From Deltaproteobacteria bacterium (GTDB lineage Bacteria; Desulfobacterota; DSM-4660; Desulfatiglandales; HGW-15), in the NCBI GenBank assembly GCA_016930835.1, contig JAFGGA010000197.1, forward strand, positions 1 through 44,459: DNA of 44,459 nt, read 5' to 3'. The notes under the pieces are model-generated. The model saw only the letters and a list, made by a program, of their open reading frames with translations, did not search any database and was not told the origin of the DNA. The position numbers and the translations under genes are program-made. Shown here one piece after another: positions 22,079-29,431 of the stretch (position 1 is the first letter of the stretch; the number at the start of each line of letters is the position of its first letter).

Positions 22079-23014
22079 TTGAGTAAAAAGAAGAAAAACA
22101 CGAGCGGCAAGAATAGAGAATTTCAAACGCAAAGGCACCGCCCTATCGCGGACAAGCTCATAAAAAAGATGAACCGGCATATGAAAAGCAAGGTTGTCGA
22201 TCTGAGGGAGATCATGTCCTGCAAAAAGAATGCCGAAGAGCTTCAGAAGACGGTATTGACCCCGGAGGAACTGGACGGCCTTCATCCGGCCCACGCAATA
22301 TACGCCTACGCCCAAAATCAGGTCTCGGTGATTGCGGAGCAGCTCCTGGGACTCAAGGAAATGGACCGATTCGCAAGACTGATCTCCCGCGCGGAGGACG
22401 AATATATGCCGAGCGGCCCGCCCATGAGCCCTCTAACGCTTTCATTCTTCACCTGCTGGACCCTCTTTGATGTATGTGTGGGTTTGGCCAAAGAGACCGT
22501 CGGGACCACGATCATCGAGGTTGGAGAGGCCTTCGGCATGCACCAGGATCTGGTGCGAGTCATCAACCTCATGCAGAACTCGCGGATGGGTGTCTTCAGG
22601 CATGAGGGCGTTGATAAAGATCAAATCATCCTCCGCGAATTCGTGACAGACAAGGTATGCAAGGCCATCTGTCCGGCCGGGTATCACGGTCAAAAGGGTG
22701 AGCTTTGGTATGTTCGCGTGCTCCCTCCACCGGATCGTTCCCTTGAAGAGCATGTCGTCTTTATCACCCCCTATTTGTTGATCGATCCGGATGAACATGA
22801 ATGGCAAGCTTATTTTCACAGGACCTTGCCGGACACCGTCATCGAAGAGCGCATCGCGGCGTACGAGCACCACATGAAGTTCGGACCGGTGCGAAACTAT
22901 TGGGCGGAATTCGTGCTTGAGGCCTATTTGAACCATCGTCCTGATGTTATTTTTCTCACGGGACTGCCCGATATACCGGAGAGCCGGCCGCATTCCAGGG
23001 TAAATAGTCGATGA
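22079..23014 (+). CDS. Unknown protein leading the SNF2-SWIM unit
   Basis: A 311-residue protein I do not recognise. It opens with a Lys-rich, basic tail (SKKKKNTSGKNREFQTQRHR) that could contact nucleic acid. Helical and mixed parts follow, including EEHVVFITPYLLIDPDEHEW. The start TTG 22079 has AAGGAGG about ten bases before. Its TGA shares ATGA with the SNF2 gene start, so the two are translated together, and the SWIM gene follows. Function is probably tied to the helicase. No signal peptide is present. It may be a DNA-binding or substrate-recognition partner. Confidence 0.7.
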   Translation: MSKKKKNTSGKNREFQTQRHRPIADKLIKKMNRHMKSKVVDLREIMSCKKNAEELQKTVLTPEELDGLHPAHAIYAYAQNQVSVIAEQLLGLKEMDRFARLISRAEDEYMPSGPPMSPLTLSFFTCWTLFDVCVGLAKETVGTTIIEVGEAFGMHQDLVRVINLMQNSRMGVFRHEGVDKDQIILREFVTDKVCKAICPAGYHGQKGELWYVRVLPPPDRSLEEHVVFITPYLLIDPDEHEWQAYFHRTLPDTVIEERIAAYEHHMKFGPVRNYWAEFVLEAYLNHRPDVIFLTGLPDIPESRPHSRVNSR

Positions 23015-25743
23015 CACAGGCCACTCGCAATAGCTGTTCTAAAGGAGGTCAGACCCTTGTCTGCCGCTTGATGCCCAGCGGGCGTATCGACGTCCAACCA
23101 GGGCCGCCAGAGGATGGCCCGCTTGTTCCAGCCAGATCCGCGAAACGAATTATCGAGGCATTTGACGAAAGCCGAGGCAAGGGCATATTGTATCTCGGCG
23201 CGGCAGAGCTTTTAACGGATTTGCCCCCATCACTTTCGTATTGGCGCGACGTCGGGAGAGCATTCATAGGCCGGGTATGTGGCGCTCTTGACCCGACTGA
23301 TTTGCAATCATTCGTCGCCCCCGATCCTGACCTCGACGAGCTATCGGAATTGAGCCAAGCCGTGCCACCTATGCAGGGTGCCGAGACCCTCACGCCTGTT
23401 CTCTTAAGTGAAATCTGGTCCGACATGGGAATGACCATGCTGACCGGAATCAAAGGGTACAAGGACGGCGTGCAGGGTTACTTAAAACAGTACAGCTCGG
23501 TCTGGAACGTGGTGGGCCGTGTCTGTTTTCATCTGGCCGAGAATAAGCGCGATCCGGAGTATCCCTTTGCCTTTATCGCGACTTATGTTCACAAGATCTC
23601 CAAACAGGCCAAACCACAACACCTTCCGCTCGGTAGGGCATTAAAGGAATACGCGGGCGCCAAGAACCGTCAGAAACTTCTTGCGCTGCTGGCTCCCCTC
23701 TCCCGCGCCGCTGAACAGAGCACTTTCATCCGCGAACTGGTTGATATCGGTGACATTTATCATCCGCTCTCCTGGAAACCCAAAGAGGCACATCAATTCC
23801 TCTGCGAGATCGATTTATACGAAAAAGCCGGGCTGGTCGTGCGTATGCCCGACTGGTGGAGCACCAAGAACAAACCTCGCCCCAAGGTCTCGGTATCGGT
23901 TGGCGATAAGGCGCCATCAACTCTGGGAATGGAAGCTCTTTTGAACTTTGATGTGAGTTTGACTTTAGACGGTAAAAAGCTGTCGAAGCAAGAAATCGAA
24001 GATCTGCTTGCCGCCGGTGATGGCCTTATTTTGGTCAAGGGTAACTGGGTGGAGGTCGATCGCGATAAGCTCTCACAAGTGCTCAACCAGTGGCATAACG
24101 TTCAAAAGCAAGCTCAAGCAGGTGGGATCAGCTTTGGCGAGGCCATGCGTATGCTCTCAGGTGCGGTTGTGGGTAACGATCATGGAAATATCGAAGACAC
24201 ACAACCGGAATGGGCGGAGATCATTGCCGGCAAGTGGCTTTCATCCCGGCTGGATGAGCTTCGGTCTCCTCAGTTGCGAGTAGATATTGAATCGGGCGCG
24301 GGGTTGAACGCCGAGCTTCGTCCTTACCAAAAGGTTGGCGTCCAGTGGCTTTCGCTTCTGCGGGGTCTTGAGCTGGGTGGTTGTCTGGCCGACGACATGG
24401 GACTGGGTAAGACGATCCAGGTTCTTGGGGTCCTATCCATGTGTAAAGCTAAAAAAGAGAAAGGCACTGATCTTTTGGTCGTTCCCGCTTCGCTTGTAGA
24501 TAACTGGTTGCAAGAGATCGAACGTTTTGCGCCTGATCTAAAGGTTCTCATCGCGCATCCGTCGCGCATTCCTTCGGCCGAGCTTATGAATCTATCGCAA
24601 AAGCAGGTAGAAAAATACGATGCAGTGATCACCACCTATGGGACAACCATACGTTCTAGATGGATGAAGGAAAATTTATGGCGGTATGTGATATTGGATG
24701 AGGCCCAGGCCATCAAGAATCCCGCCGCGAAACAGACAAAAGCGGTCAAGGCTGTAAAAGCGAGATGGCGCCTGGCGCTTACGGGGACACCGGTGGAGAA
24801 TCGCCTCGGTGACCTTTGGTCGATCTTTGATTTTTTAAATCCCGGCTTATTGGGATCGGCCAAGACCTTCAACAAGTTATGCAAATCCATGGCATCGATC
24901 AAACAAGGCTACGCCCCGTTGCGCAGGCTGGTGCAACCTTACATCTTACGGCGACTCAAAACAGACAAAAGCGTGATTGCCGATCTACCCGACAAGACCG
25001 AGATAAATGCTTTTTGCCTACTCAGCAAATGGCAAGCCGCCTTGTACCAGCAATCGGTCGAAGAGATGCGAAAGGCGATAACGAATCTCGACGGTATTGA
25101 ACGGCGGGGGGTGGTATTGGCCTTCTTGATGCGTTTCAAGCAGATATGTAATCATCCTTCCCAGTGGCTGGGTGACGGCGGGTACGCGCCGACGGACAGC
25201 GGTAAATTTGAGCGATTACGCGAATTGTGCGAACCCATTGCCGCTCGTCAAGACAAGGTGCTGGTATTCACTCAATTCCGTGAGATGACCGGGCCGCTGG
25301 CTGGCTTTTTGGCCGAGATCTTCGGGCAAAGTGGCCCTGTTTTGCACGGTGGAACGCCAGTCAAGCGGCGACAAGCGCTGGTCAAGGATTTCCAAGAGGA
25401 TGATCGGGTCCCCTTCATGGTGCTCTCGCTTAAGGCTGGCGGGGTCGGCCTCAATTTGACTGCTGCCTCCCACGTCATTCATTTCGATAGGTGGTGGAAT
25501 CCCGCGGTGGAGAATCAGGCCACGGATCGTGCATTTCGAATCGGTCAAAAAAAGAACGTGTTGGTCCACAAGTTCATTTGCCGAGGAACCTTGGAGGAAC
25601 ATATCAATGAGTTGATTGCCGGGAAACAGACGCTCTCTGATGAGATCCTATCCGGCGGTGCTGAAGTGGCCCTGACCGAGATGAGCAATGAGGAACTCAT
25701 GACCATGGTATCGCTTGATTTAAACAGTGTATTGGAAGGATAA
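23011..25743 (+). CDS. SNF2 family DNA-dependent ATPase/helicase
   Basis: A 910-residue SNF2/Rad54-type translocase. The N-terminal 400 residues are a bacterial SNF2-specific region of unknown fold. The ATPase core has motif I DDMGLGKTIQ (about 461-470), motif II DEAQ (563-566), motif III LALTGTPVENRLGDLW, motif V LKAGGVGLNLTAA, and motif VI QATDRAFRIGQ (about 836-846). These enzymes use ATP to move along double-stranded DNA and displace proteins. ATGA overlap with the gene before it and a 57-base gap to the SWIM gene define a unit. SNF2-SWIM pairs are known in bacteria; their biological role is not settled. Confidence 0.93.
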   Translation: MTQATRNSCSKGGQTLVCRLMPSGRIDVQPGPPEDGPLVPARSAKRIIEAFDESRGKGILYLGAAELLTDLPPSLSYWRDVGRAFIGRVCGALDPTDLQSFVAPDPDLDELSELSQAVPPMQGAETLTPVLLSEIWSDMGMTMLTGIKGYKDGVQGYLKQYSSVWNVVGRVCFHLAENKRDPEYPFAFIATYVHKISKQAKPQHLPLGRALKEYAGAKNRQKLLALLAPLSRAAEQSTFIRELVDIGDIYHPLSWKPKEAHQFLCEIDLYEKAGLVVRMPDWWSTKNKPRPKVSVSVGDKAPSTLGMEALLNFDVSLTLDGKKLSKQEIEDLLAAGDGLILVKGNWVEVDRDKLSQVLNQWHNVQKQAQAGGISFGEAMRMLSGAVVGNDHGNIEDTQPEWAEIIAGKWLSSRLDELRSPQLRVDIESGAGLNAELRPYQKVGVQWLSLLRGLELGGCLADDMGLGKTIQVLGVLSMCKAKKEKGTDLLVVPASLVDNWLQEIERFAPDLKVLIAHPSRIPSAELMNLSQKQVEKYDAVITTYGTTIRSRWMKENLWRYVILDEAQAIKNPAAKQTKAVKAVKARWRLALTGTPVENRLGDLWSIFDFLNPGLLGSAKTFNKLCKSMASIKQGYAPLRRLVQPYILRRLKTDKSVIADLPDKTEINAFCLLSKWQAALYQQSVEEMRKAITNLDGIERRGVVLAFLMRFKQICNHPSQWLGDGGYAPTDSGKFERLRELCEPIAARQDKVLVFTQFREMTGPLAGFLAEIFGQSGPVLHGGTPVKRRQALVKDFQEDDRVPFMVLSLKAGGVGLNLTAASHVIHFDRWWNPAVENQATDRAFRIGQKKNVLVHKFICRGTLEEHINELIAGKQTLSDEILSGGAEVALTEMSNEELMTMVSLDLNSVLEG

Positions 25744-25800
25744 GCAATAAGTGTGGACTGGTCATAAGCCCATGTCCAAATGATGAGGGGAGGTGAACCT

Positions 25801-26946
25801 ATGGGGTGGTATTTCCGCAATTCCTGGCAACCGCATGTTTCAGCAGCTACACGCCGCCTACAGGCAGCGCAGACGTTAGCCGCGATGAAGAAAAGCGGGC
25901 GCGACATCGCACCAATAACGATCACGGGACGCAGGATCGTTTCAACGTTTTGGGGCGACGCCTGGTGTAAGAATCTCGAGGCTTACAGTGATTATTCGAA
26001 TCGTCTGCCCCGCGGACGGACTTATGTGAGAAACGGCTCGGTGATTGACCTGCAAATCAGCACCAATCGTGTTCGCGCGCTTGTCAGCGGATCGGATATA
26101 TACGAGGTAGATATTCAAATCGAGTCCTTGACAAAAGACAGATGGAATTCAATCAAAAGACAATGCGCGGGTCGGATCAATTCATTGGTTGAACTGCTCC
26201 GGGGTTCTATATCCAAGGGCGTGATGGAAATCGTAACTCGTAAGGGCGAAGGGCTGCTTCCATCACCCACAGAGATTACAATGACCTGCTCATGCCCGGA
26301 TTGGGCCGTCATGTGTAAACACGTGGCCGCGACGCTATATGGCGTTGGCGCGCGTCTCGATCATAAGCCTGATCTGCTGTTTATCTTACGCGGGGTGGAC
26401 CCCACCGAGATGGTGGAGTCGGCAATTGATCAACAAACCATGACCGGTAAGACCAGTAAAGTAAGGTTGCTTGATAGCGATGAGCTTTCGTCGGTTTTTG
26501 GGATTGATATTGAAATGGAGGATGCTTCTTTGGCTAAAGAAAGGTCTCCGATCCTGTCCGCCAAAAAGGTAAAGCACCCTGCAAAAACCGGGAAAAAGGT
26601 GATTTCAAAAGAAAACAAGAAGAAAACCGTGGCAAAACCAAGGGTCGGGAAGTCCGTAATTGCCGATCCCGCTTCCCAAAAGGCCGCCTCCGCGAAAACG
26701 AGCGTTTCTAAAAGAGCCCCTCTTAAAAAACCCACTAAGAAGAAAGCATCCGTAAAAAAGCCCGTGCTGAAGAAGACCCCCGGGAAAAAATCCGTAAGCA
26801 AGAAAGTTCCTGTAAAAAAATCTAATGCAAGTAAGTTAACGGTCGGAAAATCCGTGTCCAAGAACATACCCGCAAAAAAACAAGTTAAAGGGATCCCCTC
26901 CAAAAAGAATAAAATCAAGAAATCCAAGGGGGCAAAAGGATCATAA
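25801..26946 (+). CDS. SWIM zinc-finger protein with a histone-H1-like Lys-rich tail
   Basis: A 381-residue protein. The N-terminal part (about 1-160) is shared by bacterial SWIM proteins (GWYFRNSWQPH, RRIVSTFWGDAWCKNLEAYSDYSNRLPRGR). The SWIM zinc site CSCPDWAVMCKH is at 163-174 (CxC-x6-CxH). From about residue 255 the protein is a low-complexity tail of Lys, Ala, Pro, Ser and Val with repeated KKxxxKK units (for example KKPTKKKASVKK), resembling histone H1 and expected to bind DNA. I place the start at ATG 25801 with GGGGAGGTGA six bases before; an upstream in-frame ATG (25780) lies before the ribosome binding site. It is the third gene of the SNF2 unit. Confidence 0.88.
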   Translation: MGWYFRNSWQPHVSAATRRLQAAQTLAAMKKSGRDIAPITITGRRIVSTFWGDAWCKNLEAYSDYSNRLPRGRTYVRNGSVIDLQISTNRVRALVSGSDIYEVDIQIESLTKDRWNSIKRQCAGRINSLVELLRGSISKGVMEIVTRKGEGLLPSPTEITMTCSCPDWAVMCKHVAATLYGVGARLDHKPDLLFILRGVDPTEMVESAIDQQTMTGKTSKVRLLDSDELSSVFGIDIEMEDASLAKERSPILSAKKVKHPAKTGKKVISKENKKKTVAKPRVGKSVIADPASQKAASAKTSVSKRAPLKKPTKKKASVKKPVLKKTPGKKSVSKKVPVKKSNASKLTVGKSVSKNIPAKKQVKGIPSKKNKIKKSKGAKGS

Positions 26947-27474: not shown

Positions 27475-28203
27475 TCAATTTTCAGTTTCAGAATCTCCCT
27501 CCGCGCCATCTCCAGAGGAATCATATACACAAATGATATCTGCCAGGTTCAGGCAAACATCCCCGGCCAAGAGATAAGGTTCTCCTGATTCATAGGCAAT
27601 CCCCGTGATCCGCCATTGGCTTAGGGTATTCACCGCGACCTCTTCTCCATTATTATCGGTAGCCACCACCTCGTACGTATAGGTCCCGTCTTCCACTAAA
27701 AGGCCTTGATCATCTTTTCCACCCCACCCAATCATTTGGGAACCGGCTTCATTTGCATCATACTGGATCTCTCGAACCCTATTCCCCGCGGCATCGAATA
27801 TGGTGATGACCACCAGAGCGGGCTCTTCAATGGAAAATGAGGTTGCACCTAAAGGCTCCCCATCCTGAACCGCGATTTCATTACCTTCCACCAGGACATC
27901 TTTTCCGATATATCCGAGAGGATCCGAAGCTGAGAGGCCCTCAAGTTCTGTGGAAACCGTATCCAGTTTCTCATTCACGTTGTAAAGTTGCTCTACCGTG
28001 GAGATCGCTGAAAGCTGGGCGGTCATATCGGTTGCTTCTAATGGATTGAGCGGATCCTGATATTGAAGCTGAGCGAGAAAAACAGTCAAAAAATCATCCA
28101 TTTCCATCATACTGCTGCTGTTGCTGCTACTTGTTGTATCTGTGGAGGCATATTGGCTACTTAATGTCTCCAAAATAGATGCCTGAATATTGTTGACTGT
28201 CAT
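27475..28203 (-). CDS. flgD: Flagellar hook-capping protein FlgD
   Basis: A 242-residue protein with the FlgD N-terminal signature MDDFLTVFLAQLQYQDPLNP and TDMTAQLSAISTVEQLYNVN. This is followed by the FlgD tudor-like/Ig-like region (FDAAGNRVREIQYDA, TYTYEVVATDNNGEEV) and a C-terminal acidic tail. FlgD scaffolds assembly of hook subunits and is exported by the flagellar secretion system. AAAGGA lies a few bases before the ATG. No other flagellar gene is in this window, which is unusual. The gene upstream on the same strand encodes a duplicated-domain protein that may be its partner. Confidence 0.93.
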   Translation of the reverse strand: MTVNNIQASILETLSSQYASTDTTSSSNSSSMMEMDDFLTVFLAQLQYQDPLNPLEATDMTAQLSAISTVEQLYNVNEKLDTVSTELEGLSASDPLGYIGKDVLVEGNEIAVQDGEPLGATSFSIEEPALVVITIFDAAGNRVREIQYDANEAGSQMIGWGGKDDQGLLVEDGTYTYEVVATDNNGEEVAVNTLSQWRITGIAYESGEPYLLAGDVCLNLADIICVYDSSGDGAEGDSETEN

Positions 28204-28272: not shown

Positions 28273-29007
28273 TTATAATGTTGTTTGTTCATCATCGTCT
28301 GTTTTGAACATATATTTCATGGCCGCCGCACCTGTGGCTCTGGATGAGTATGGCATTTCATTCCCGTAACCTCCATAGGTATTATTGGATGGAGGTGGAG
28401 GCGGCGGGGCGGATACCTGTTCTTCCAGCAAGGTCTCCAGATCGATTCCGTTTTCCTCGGCAAAAGACTTGAGGGCATCCGGTGCATTGGCGGCCATTTC
28501 CGAGGCGTCAAAGGTCCCATCCTTCACAGCCTCCATCATCTCCTCATGGAATGTATGCATCTCTTCCTTTTCATCATCGCTCAATTGAGAAACAAGGTCC
28601 CCTGCTCCTCCGAATGGCATGGGGGGAGGGGGTCCCATCCCAATGGGTTGGTTTTCCATCATAGAAGCTTGTTCCTCCAACATGGTCTCCAGGTCGATGC
28701 CATTTTCCTCTGCAAATGACTTAAGGGCATCCGGTGCATTAGCGGCCATTTCCGAGGCATCAAAGGTCCCGTTCTGTATGGCCGCCAACATCTGTTCATG
28801 AAATGTGCGCATCTCCTCCTTTTTATCATCGCTCAGTTGGGAAACAACATTTCTGAATTTTCCGATCATACTGATGTCTATTTTTTCAGAAGGATTGTTA
28901 CTCATGGTCCAAAAGTCGTCATCTGAAACGGATGATGAAGATGATTGAAAAGCTGTTTCATAGGTCCCATATAAGGCCTGCATCAAATCGATTTTATTGA
29001 TCTCCAT
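28273..29007 (-). CDS. Protein with a near-perfect internal duplication, next to flgD
   Basis: A 244-residue protein I do not recognise. Two blocks of about 59 residues (55-113 and 139-197) are nearly identical; each begins VSQLSDDxKEEM and ends in a long helix, and the segment GTFDASEMAANAPDALK and its continuation are the same in both. A Pro/Gly linker (MGPPPPMPFGG) separates them, and a second Pro-rich part (APPPPPP) follows. The frame opens further upstream, but the ATG at 29007 has AAAGGAG six bases before and is the start. No signal peptide is present. It shares a strand with flgD 69 bases away and may be exported with it (inference). Confidence 0.75.
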   Translation of the reverse strand: MEINKIDLMQALYGTYETAFQSSSSSVSDDDFWTMSNNPSEKIDISMIGKFRNVVSQLSDDKKEEMRTFHEQMLAAIQNGTFDASEMAANAPDALKSFAEENGIDLETMLEEQASMMENQPIGMGPPPPMPFGGAGDLVSQLSDDEKEEMHTFHEEMMEAVKDGTFDASEMAANAPDALKSFAEENGIDLETLLEEQVSAPPPPPPSNNTYGGYGNEMPYSSRATGAAAMKYMFKTDDDEQTTL

Positions 29008-29158
29008 AGTGATCTCCTTTCTGCCCTCCAAGCGGGGCATCACCGTTTGCGTTTTCAGGGGCAATTCCTGTGCCGTAAAAGCACTTCGGAGAGGAGGAAC
29101 CGATGCATGAAAGGATCGATAAGTTACGCTTTGAGGAAACGAAAAAATTCAAAATGAA

Positions 29159-29431
29159 TCAGGGCCTTCGACGCCTCTTATCCTCTAAAATCAGATGGGC
29201 TCGTTTCATTAAAAGGGTTTTCCAGTTTTTGATTTGGTTGGGATGGATTTTGTAATGTTCCGCCAGTTCCTTGAGGCTGCCTTTACCGTCCAATAAATCC
29301 CTTAATACCCTAGTCTTGAAAGTGCCGCTGTAACTTTTTCGTTTCTTCACAATAAGTTTATCCGATAAATACGATGTTTCACCTAAACATCCTGTCTGCA
29401 ACGGGCAAGCGTAACTTAAAACGTCACTCAT
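29159..29431 (-). pseudogene. IS3-family orfA-type transposase fragment
   Basis: A 90-residue frame. Residues of about 30-85 match the helix-turn-helix OrfA of IS3-type elements (RKSYSGTFKTRVLRDLLDG, SLKELAEHYKIHPNQIKNWK). The frame stops after DKRRRRP, the end of orfA in intact elements, and no orfB integrase is found downstream. The leader before it is not family-like, so it is a remnant. Flanking terminal repeats are not clear. Confidence 0.7.

Follow-up and report, generated by a model that had tools for sequence, protein, structure and literature searches.

The Repeat Gene and Its Neighbors

The window, that is the whole stretch of 44,459 nucleotides analyzed here, carries on its minus strand a gene for an acidic protein with an internal duplication. 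The gene, P0001, is followed by a second copy of the hook-cap gene flgD and preceded by a sigma-54-type site. The features of the locus are as follows.

27475..28203 (-): second FlgD (hook-cap family), 242 aa, starting 69 nt after P0001
28273..29007 (-): repeat gene P0001, ATG start, 244 aa and stop
28411..28596 (-): module copy 2, residues 138-199
28432..28518 (-): stretch of 29 residues shared by both modules, in copy 2
28663..28848 (-): module copy 1, residues 54-115
28684..28770 (-): stretch of 29 residues shared by both modules, in copy 1
28870..29007 (-): N-terminal tail rich in Ser and Asp, residues 1-46
29060..29075 (-): sigma-54-type site CGGCACAGGAATTGCC, 52 nt before the P0001 ATG
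29159..29431 (-): short ORF encoding a helix-turn-helix of the transposase type (HTH_Tnp_1), next to the P0001/flgD unit

The P0001 product has a net charge of -33, a pI of about 4 and no cysteine, and no Pfam family matches it above the curated cut-off. The gene is present once in the genome. Its DNA contains two direct repeats of 178 nt each, with 84% identity and a spacing of 252 nt. The two module copies are in register, offset by 84 codons, and agree at 51 of 62 residues, the other 11 being different. Their longest stretch without a difference is exactly 29 residues long, GTFDASEMAANAPDALKSFAEENGIDLET, as the initial annotation of this DNA had reported. Each module is followed by a proline-rich stretch (GPPPPMP and APPPPPP), so that the repeat unit is the module together with its linker. 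A longer frame with a TTG start (28273-29064) is unlikely to be used: that start falls within the predicted promoter, and it is the ATG that is served by a strong ribosome site, AGAAAGGAGA.

The gene downstream reads as a full FlgD, with N-terminal, Ig-like and Tudor-like domains, and its three Pfam matches (PF03963, 64.2 bits; PF13860, 54; PF13861, 30.3) are each above their cut-offs. No promoter-like site was found just upstream of its start, and the spacing suggests that P0001 and the second flgD may be co-transcribed. The fliK-flgD-flgE cluster of the genome sits on a separate contig, C97, in the order FliK, FlgD, FlgE, MotA. The window FlgD is 37% identical to the other FlgD of the genome over 206 aligned positions. 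A FlgD match at 1e-10 was found in 73 of 148 genomes, and two such matches only in the present one. In a FlgD tree of 29 rows (L019 and L037 were omitted for stops inside their frames), the C97 copy groups with a family member, and the window copy forms a long lone branch at an unresolved fork, apart from it. FliK is the hook-length control protein and FlgD the flagellar hook-capping protein (PMC13344023). Among literature listings and the beginnings of abstracts, no description of a second-FlgD pair was found.

Upstream of P0001 lie the transposase-type ORF, which may mark a past insertion, and then an efflux operon. On its other side, the unit is flanked by an ORF that resembles DUF1858, at a score below the cut-off, and by a helicase pair. 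This pair (23011-26946, plus strand) consists of a SNF2-type helicase and then a SWIM-domain-like protein, whose C-terminus weakly matches the histone H1-like HC2, and it is kept in 2 of 16 other family genomes. The relatives G013 and G010 have SNF2 and SWIM genes on 6.7 kb contigs that hold no flgD, repeat or efflux matches, and neither offers a clean empty site. Elsewhere in the genome, off the main clusters, contig C199 encodes an orphan protein of 118 aa that has both the N-terminal and the C-terminal flagellar rod/hook domain (L060:1276-1629), adjoined by a MotB-like OmpA gene (L060:1863-2651).

A Sigma-54-Type Site Ahead of the Repeat Gene

Sigma-54 promoters carry a GG-N10-GC core in a TGGCAC-N5-TTGC context near the gene start. 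A site of this type is found near the start of P0001. It has one mismatch to TGGCAC-N5-TTGC and reaches 14.1 of 19.9 possible bits with a weighted matrix. No other site on either strand of the window scores as high (runner-up 11.4 bits), and the 25 other gene starts examined there have nothing better than 3.8 bits within 150 nt. In Markov sequence, a site as good would occur in a given 200 bp with a probability of 0.0014. By the plain pattern with one mismatch, the site is unexceptional, as the whole window holds 2 such sites against 2.8 expected.

The matrix was also run over six other stretches of the genome (four of C97, one of C223 and one of C199), where it gave 9 sites of at least 12.9 bits. 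Five of them sit 25-90 nt before the genes of FliK, MotA, FliP, FlhA and FlgF, the FliP and FlhA sites falling within the preceding frame. The other four have no recognized flagellar gene behind them: two have no listed downstream ORF, one precedes an ORF with no Pfam match and one a DUF4405 gene. The genome encodes sigma-54, as judged from a single match to its DNA-binding domain.

Divergence of the Two Copies

Over the 29-residue block, the DNA of the two copies differs at 8 of 87 bases, and all of these differences are silent. The initial annotation had estimated about nine silent differences in 80 bases; its statement that all are silent stands, with the count corrected. If 8 substitutions were placed at random, the chance that all would be silent is 5e-6 to 2.5e-5 in a simulation with two simple transition/transversion settings. 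The run of 29 residues is likewise longer than expected for 11 replacements randomly spread over 62 residues (P about 0.004).

The proposed count of synonymous and non-synonymous changes was made over the whole repeat by the method of Nei and Gojobori. It gives 21.5 silent differences in 37.5 synonymous sites (dS about 1.08) and 11.5 replacements in 148.5 sites (dN 0.082), with a copy-to-copy dN/dS of 0.075. The duplication is thus not recent on these sequence counts, in agreement with what was first proposed; "old" is safe, and a date is unsafe because dS rests on few sites near saturation. The proposed selection for alike protein repeats holds overall, and it acts unevenly. Nine replacements fall in the first 26 residues (dN 0.163) and two in the last 36 (Fisher P 0.005), and the 29-residue block has no amino-acid change at a pS of 0.40.

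Gene conversion was the competing account of the identical block in the initial annotation. Silent differences are indeed somewhat sparser in the block, at 8 of 20 sites, against about 13 of 17 in the remaining repeat. With rounded counts, Fisher's test gives P 0.045 for this comparison and P 0.30 for that with the first part of the repeat alone. Some conversion may have taken place inside the block, and it would be old, since 40% of the silent sites there differ. Strong constraint on the protein is still the simpler account. The two modules provide an internal comparison of what selection fixes in a protein with no detectable relatives.

Predicted Fold of the Modules

A model of the whole P0001 protein from its single sequence is poor (pLDDT 56), and its structure matches are unusable. 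The two module regions are better in this model, with 97 residues at pLDDT 70-90, and values below 50 are found at residues 1-46 (N-terminus), 119-139 (linker) and 200-244 (C-terminus). Modeling of the repeat unit itself, another step proposed at the outset, was done for copy 2 alone, with copy 1 as the only other alignment row. It predicts a compact domain of five helices (pLDDT 82.8, pTM 0.61). Each module is predicted to fold by itself as a small helical domain, and the earlier idea that the unit is a binding module is compatible with this predicted fold. The modules are probably paired binding domains.

The module model gave no Foldseek match in the PDB below E 1 (22 rows below E 10), and none to viral models below E 1 among the best 50 of 80 rows. 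With VIA-align, the best Z was 3.4, at an rmsd of 3.9 over 60 aligned residues. The predicted module thus has no convincing solved or viral match, from which newness of the fold does not follow. In PHROGs, weak matches were obtained to families of unknown function and to one tape-measure family (best E 0.00014), with no stretch passing alone.

Search for Relatives

Single-sequence searches with P0001 matched 0 of 60 other relatives in a set of 61 genomes and 0 of 84 other genomes in a set of 85 from the class. A profile search of 17 family genomes matched 0 of 16 others. Over 395 genomes of the phylum, the profile gave weak matches in 16 of 394 others (E 0.005 to 0.095), which we judged to be chance after a scan of all 16 loci, the inspected part of the alignments showing short partial stretches. 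A tblastn search of plasmid and phage records gave no match. Species-wide contigs were scanned with DD[EK]KEEM and [HR]TFHE[EQ]M[ML], and in a second scan with [DN]GTFDASE and MAANAPDA; no relative was found, and these seed peptides are poor, so the scans are weak for diverged relatives outside the phylum.

Viral contigs gave a single match, on L054, where an ORF of 118 aa that lies among genes of the phage type has a short stretch resembling FAEENGID; the match was rejected as chance. This small protein (L054:4935-5291) carries the FAEENGID motif and then a GTGKDGRV stretch, and is E3-binding-domain-like. Upstream of 29 FlgD loci of other genomes (L009 to L037), no convincing repeat-like frame was found, the best profile E being 1.1. 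A long frame at L037 is the best single-sequence match to P0001 near these loci (E 0.0042, 13.7 bits), and homology was not accepted. On these searches, P0001 is most likely lineage-restricted.

A Proposed Two-Gene Flagellar Unit

Our tentative reading, which we hold at slightly less than even confidence, is that P0001 is an accessory flagellar protein made in a sigma-54 unit with the second flgD, and that its two modules bind the second FlgD or the hook. Together, P0001 and the second flgD would form a single sigma-54-driven transcription unit of the flagellar regulon, in which P0001 would fill the slot of fliK in the usual fliK-flgD-flgE order. The protein would begin with an unstructured, serine-rich N-terminus, where residues 1-46 are a possible export signal, and continue with the two compact helical modules on proline-rich linkers. 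The lack of cysteine and the net charge are compatible with export, not a proof of it. Both modules would probably attach to one and the same partner, with the second FlgD or the growing hook as the likeliest candidate, which would make the binding bivalent. The block without amino-acid differences would form the core or the binding face, and the first helix would be freer to change.

Several observations speak against this reading. The neighbors of the unit are a DNA-helicase pair and an efflux operon, and the flagellar clusters lie elsewhere. Genes that are not flagellar are driven by sigma-54 too, and four of the nine other sites have no recognized flagellar gene behind them. The pairing of P0001 with a second flgD has no support from a conserved neighborhood, since the searches gave no relative for comparison. 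A bolder form of the proposal, which we consider quite unlikely, is a flagellar add-on of two genes: a double-module protein specific to the lineage and a dedicated second FlgD, switched on by sigma-54, which would build or end a variant hook or another flagellum-exported structure besides the standard one. The hook cap is otherwise found once in the genomes examined, so flagellar assembly would be extended in an unusual way by a second cap gene that is paired with a protein outside all known families. The repeat itself is ordinary; of more interest are that P0001 is paired with a second FlgD, that a promoter-like site precedes it and that no relatives of it were detected.

Alternative Explanations and Comparison with Known Systems

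The second flgD and its attached gene could instead have been acquired by transfer and be a mobile or decaying leftover with little function now. This is unlikely. In its favor, a transposase-type fragment adjoins the unit, only one of the 148 genomes examined has the doubled FlgD, the window FlgD branches apart from the other FlgD of this genome, and two relatives have the helicase pair with no P0001/flgD unit in the stretch examined. However, the frames are open, the ribosome sites good and the promoter-like site strong, and dN/dS between the copies is low; these points favor a function that lasted at least until recently. It is improbable that P0001 belongs to the envelope or the cell surface, as a non-flagellar member of the sigma-54 regulon that stands beside flgD by accident. 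An acidic, repetitive and proline-linked architecture is common among surface proteins and is that of P0001, and some sigma-54-type sites of the genome precede non-flagellar genes, but P0001 lies on the same strand as a full FlgD gene and only 69 nt upstream of it, and the start of that gene has no promoter-like site of its own.

The position of P0001 directly before flgD and behind a sigma-54-type site is that of fliK in the C97 cluster, and disordered, proline-rich stretches like those of P0001 would be fitting in a ruler. It is nevertheless decidedly improbable that P0001 acts in the manner of FliK, as the ruler or export switch of a variant hook that is built with the second FlgD. P0001 has no FliK C-terminal domain (Flg_hook, PF02120) at E up to 1, no second hook gene (flgE) lies beside it, and at 244 aa it is much shorter than the 575 aa of the genome's FliK and is built of two helical modules. 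We do not call P0001 a FliK because this domain is absent and no meaningful alignment with the genome's FliK was obtained. PF02120 has two matches in the genome, both on C97; the second, below cut-off, lies at 51491-51694 (L062) in a 363-aa frame on this flagellar contig. It is very improbable that the modules are degenerate EF-hands, that is calcium-binding domains. Each module has a half loop of the form DG-T-hydrophobic-D-x-x-E between two helices (DGTFDASE or NGTFDASE), which resembles the second half of an EF-hand loop, and EF-hand proteins of the lanmodulin type are the top two matches of the module profile among solved structures. These matches are non-significant (E 0.047 and 0.067, and about 8 for the best single stretch), and Pfam EF-hand families are absent from P0001 at E up to 1, the two weak matches in the genome both lying outside the window. 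An EF-hand is a 12-residue loop with ligands at positions 1, 3, 5, 9 and 12. By this definition, the first two ligands are missing in P0001, as positions 1 and 3 are A and I in copy 1 and E and V in copy 2, with no calcium ligands there.

P0001 also shares a short FAEENGID-like motif with the E3-binding (peripheral subunit-binding) domain, but it covers only 14 of 36 profile positions, and PF02817 reaches 17.7 bits against a cut-off of 23.7. The EF-hand and E3-binding resemblances are both below significance and lack defining features. Among known systems, FlgD is the counterpart of the downstream gene, which has all three FlgD domains and 37% identity to the other FlgD of the genome. It differs from that FlgD in being a second copy outside the flagellar clusters, with the repeat gene ahead of it in place of fliK.
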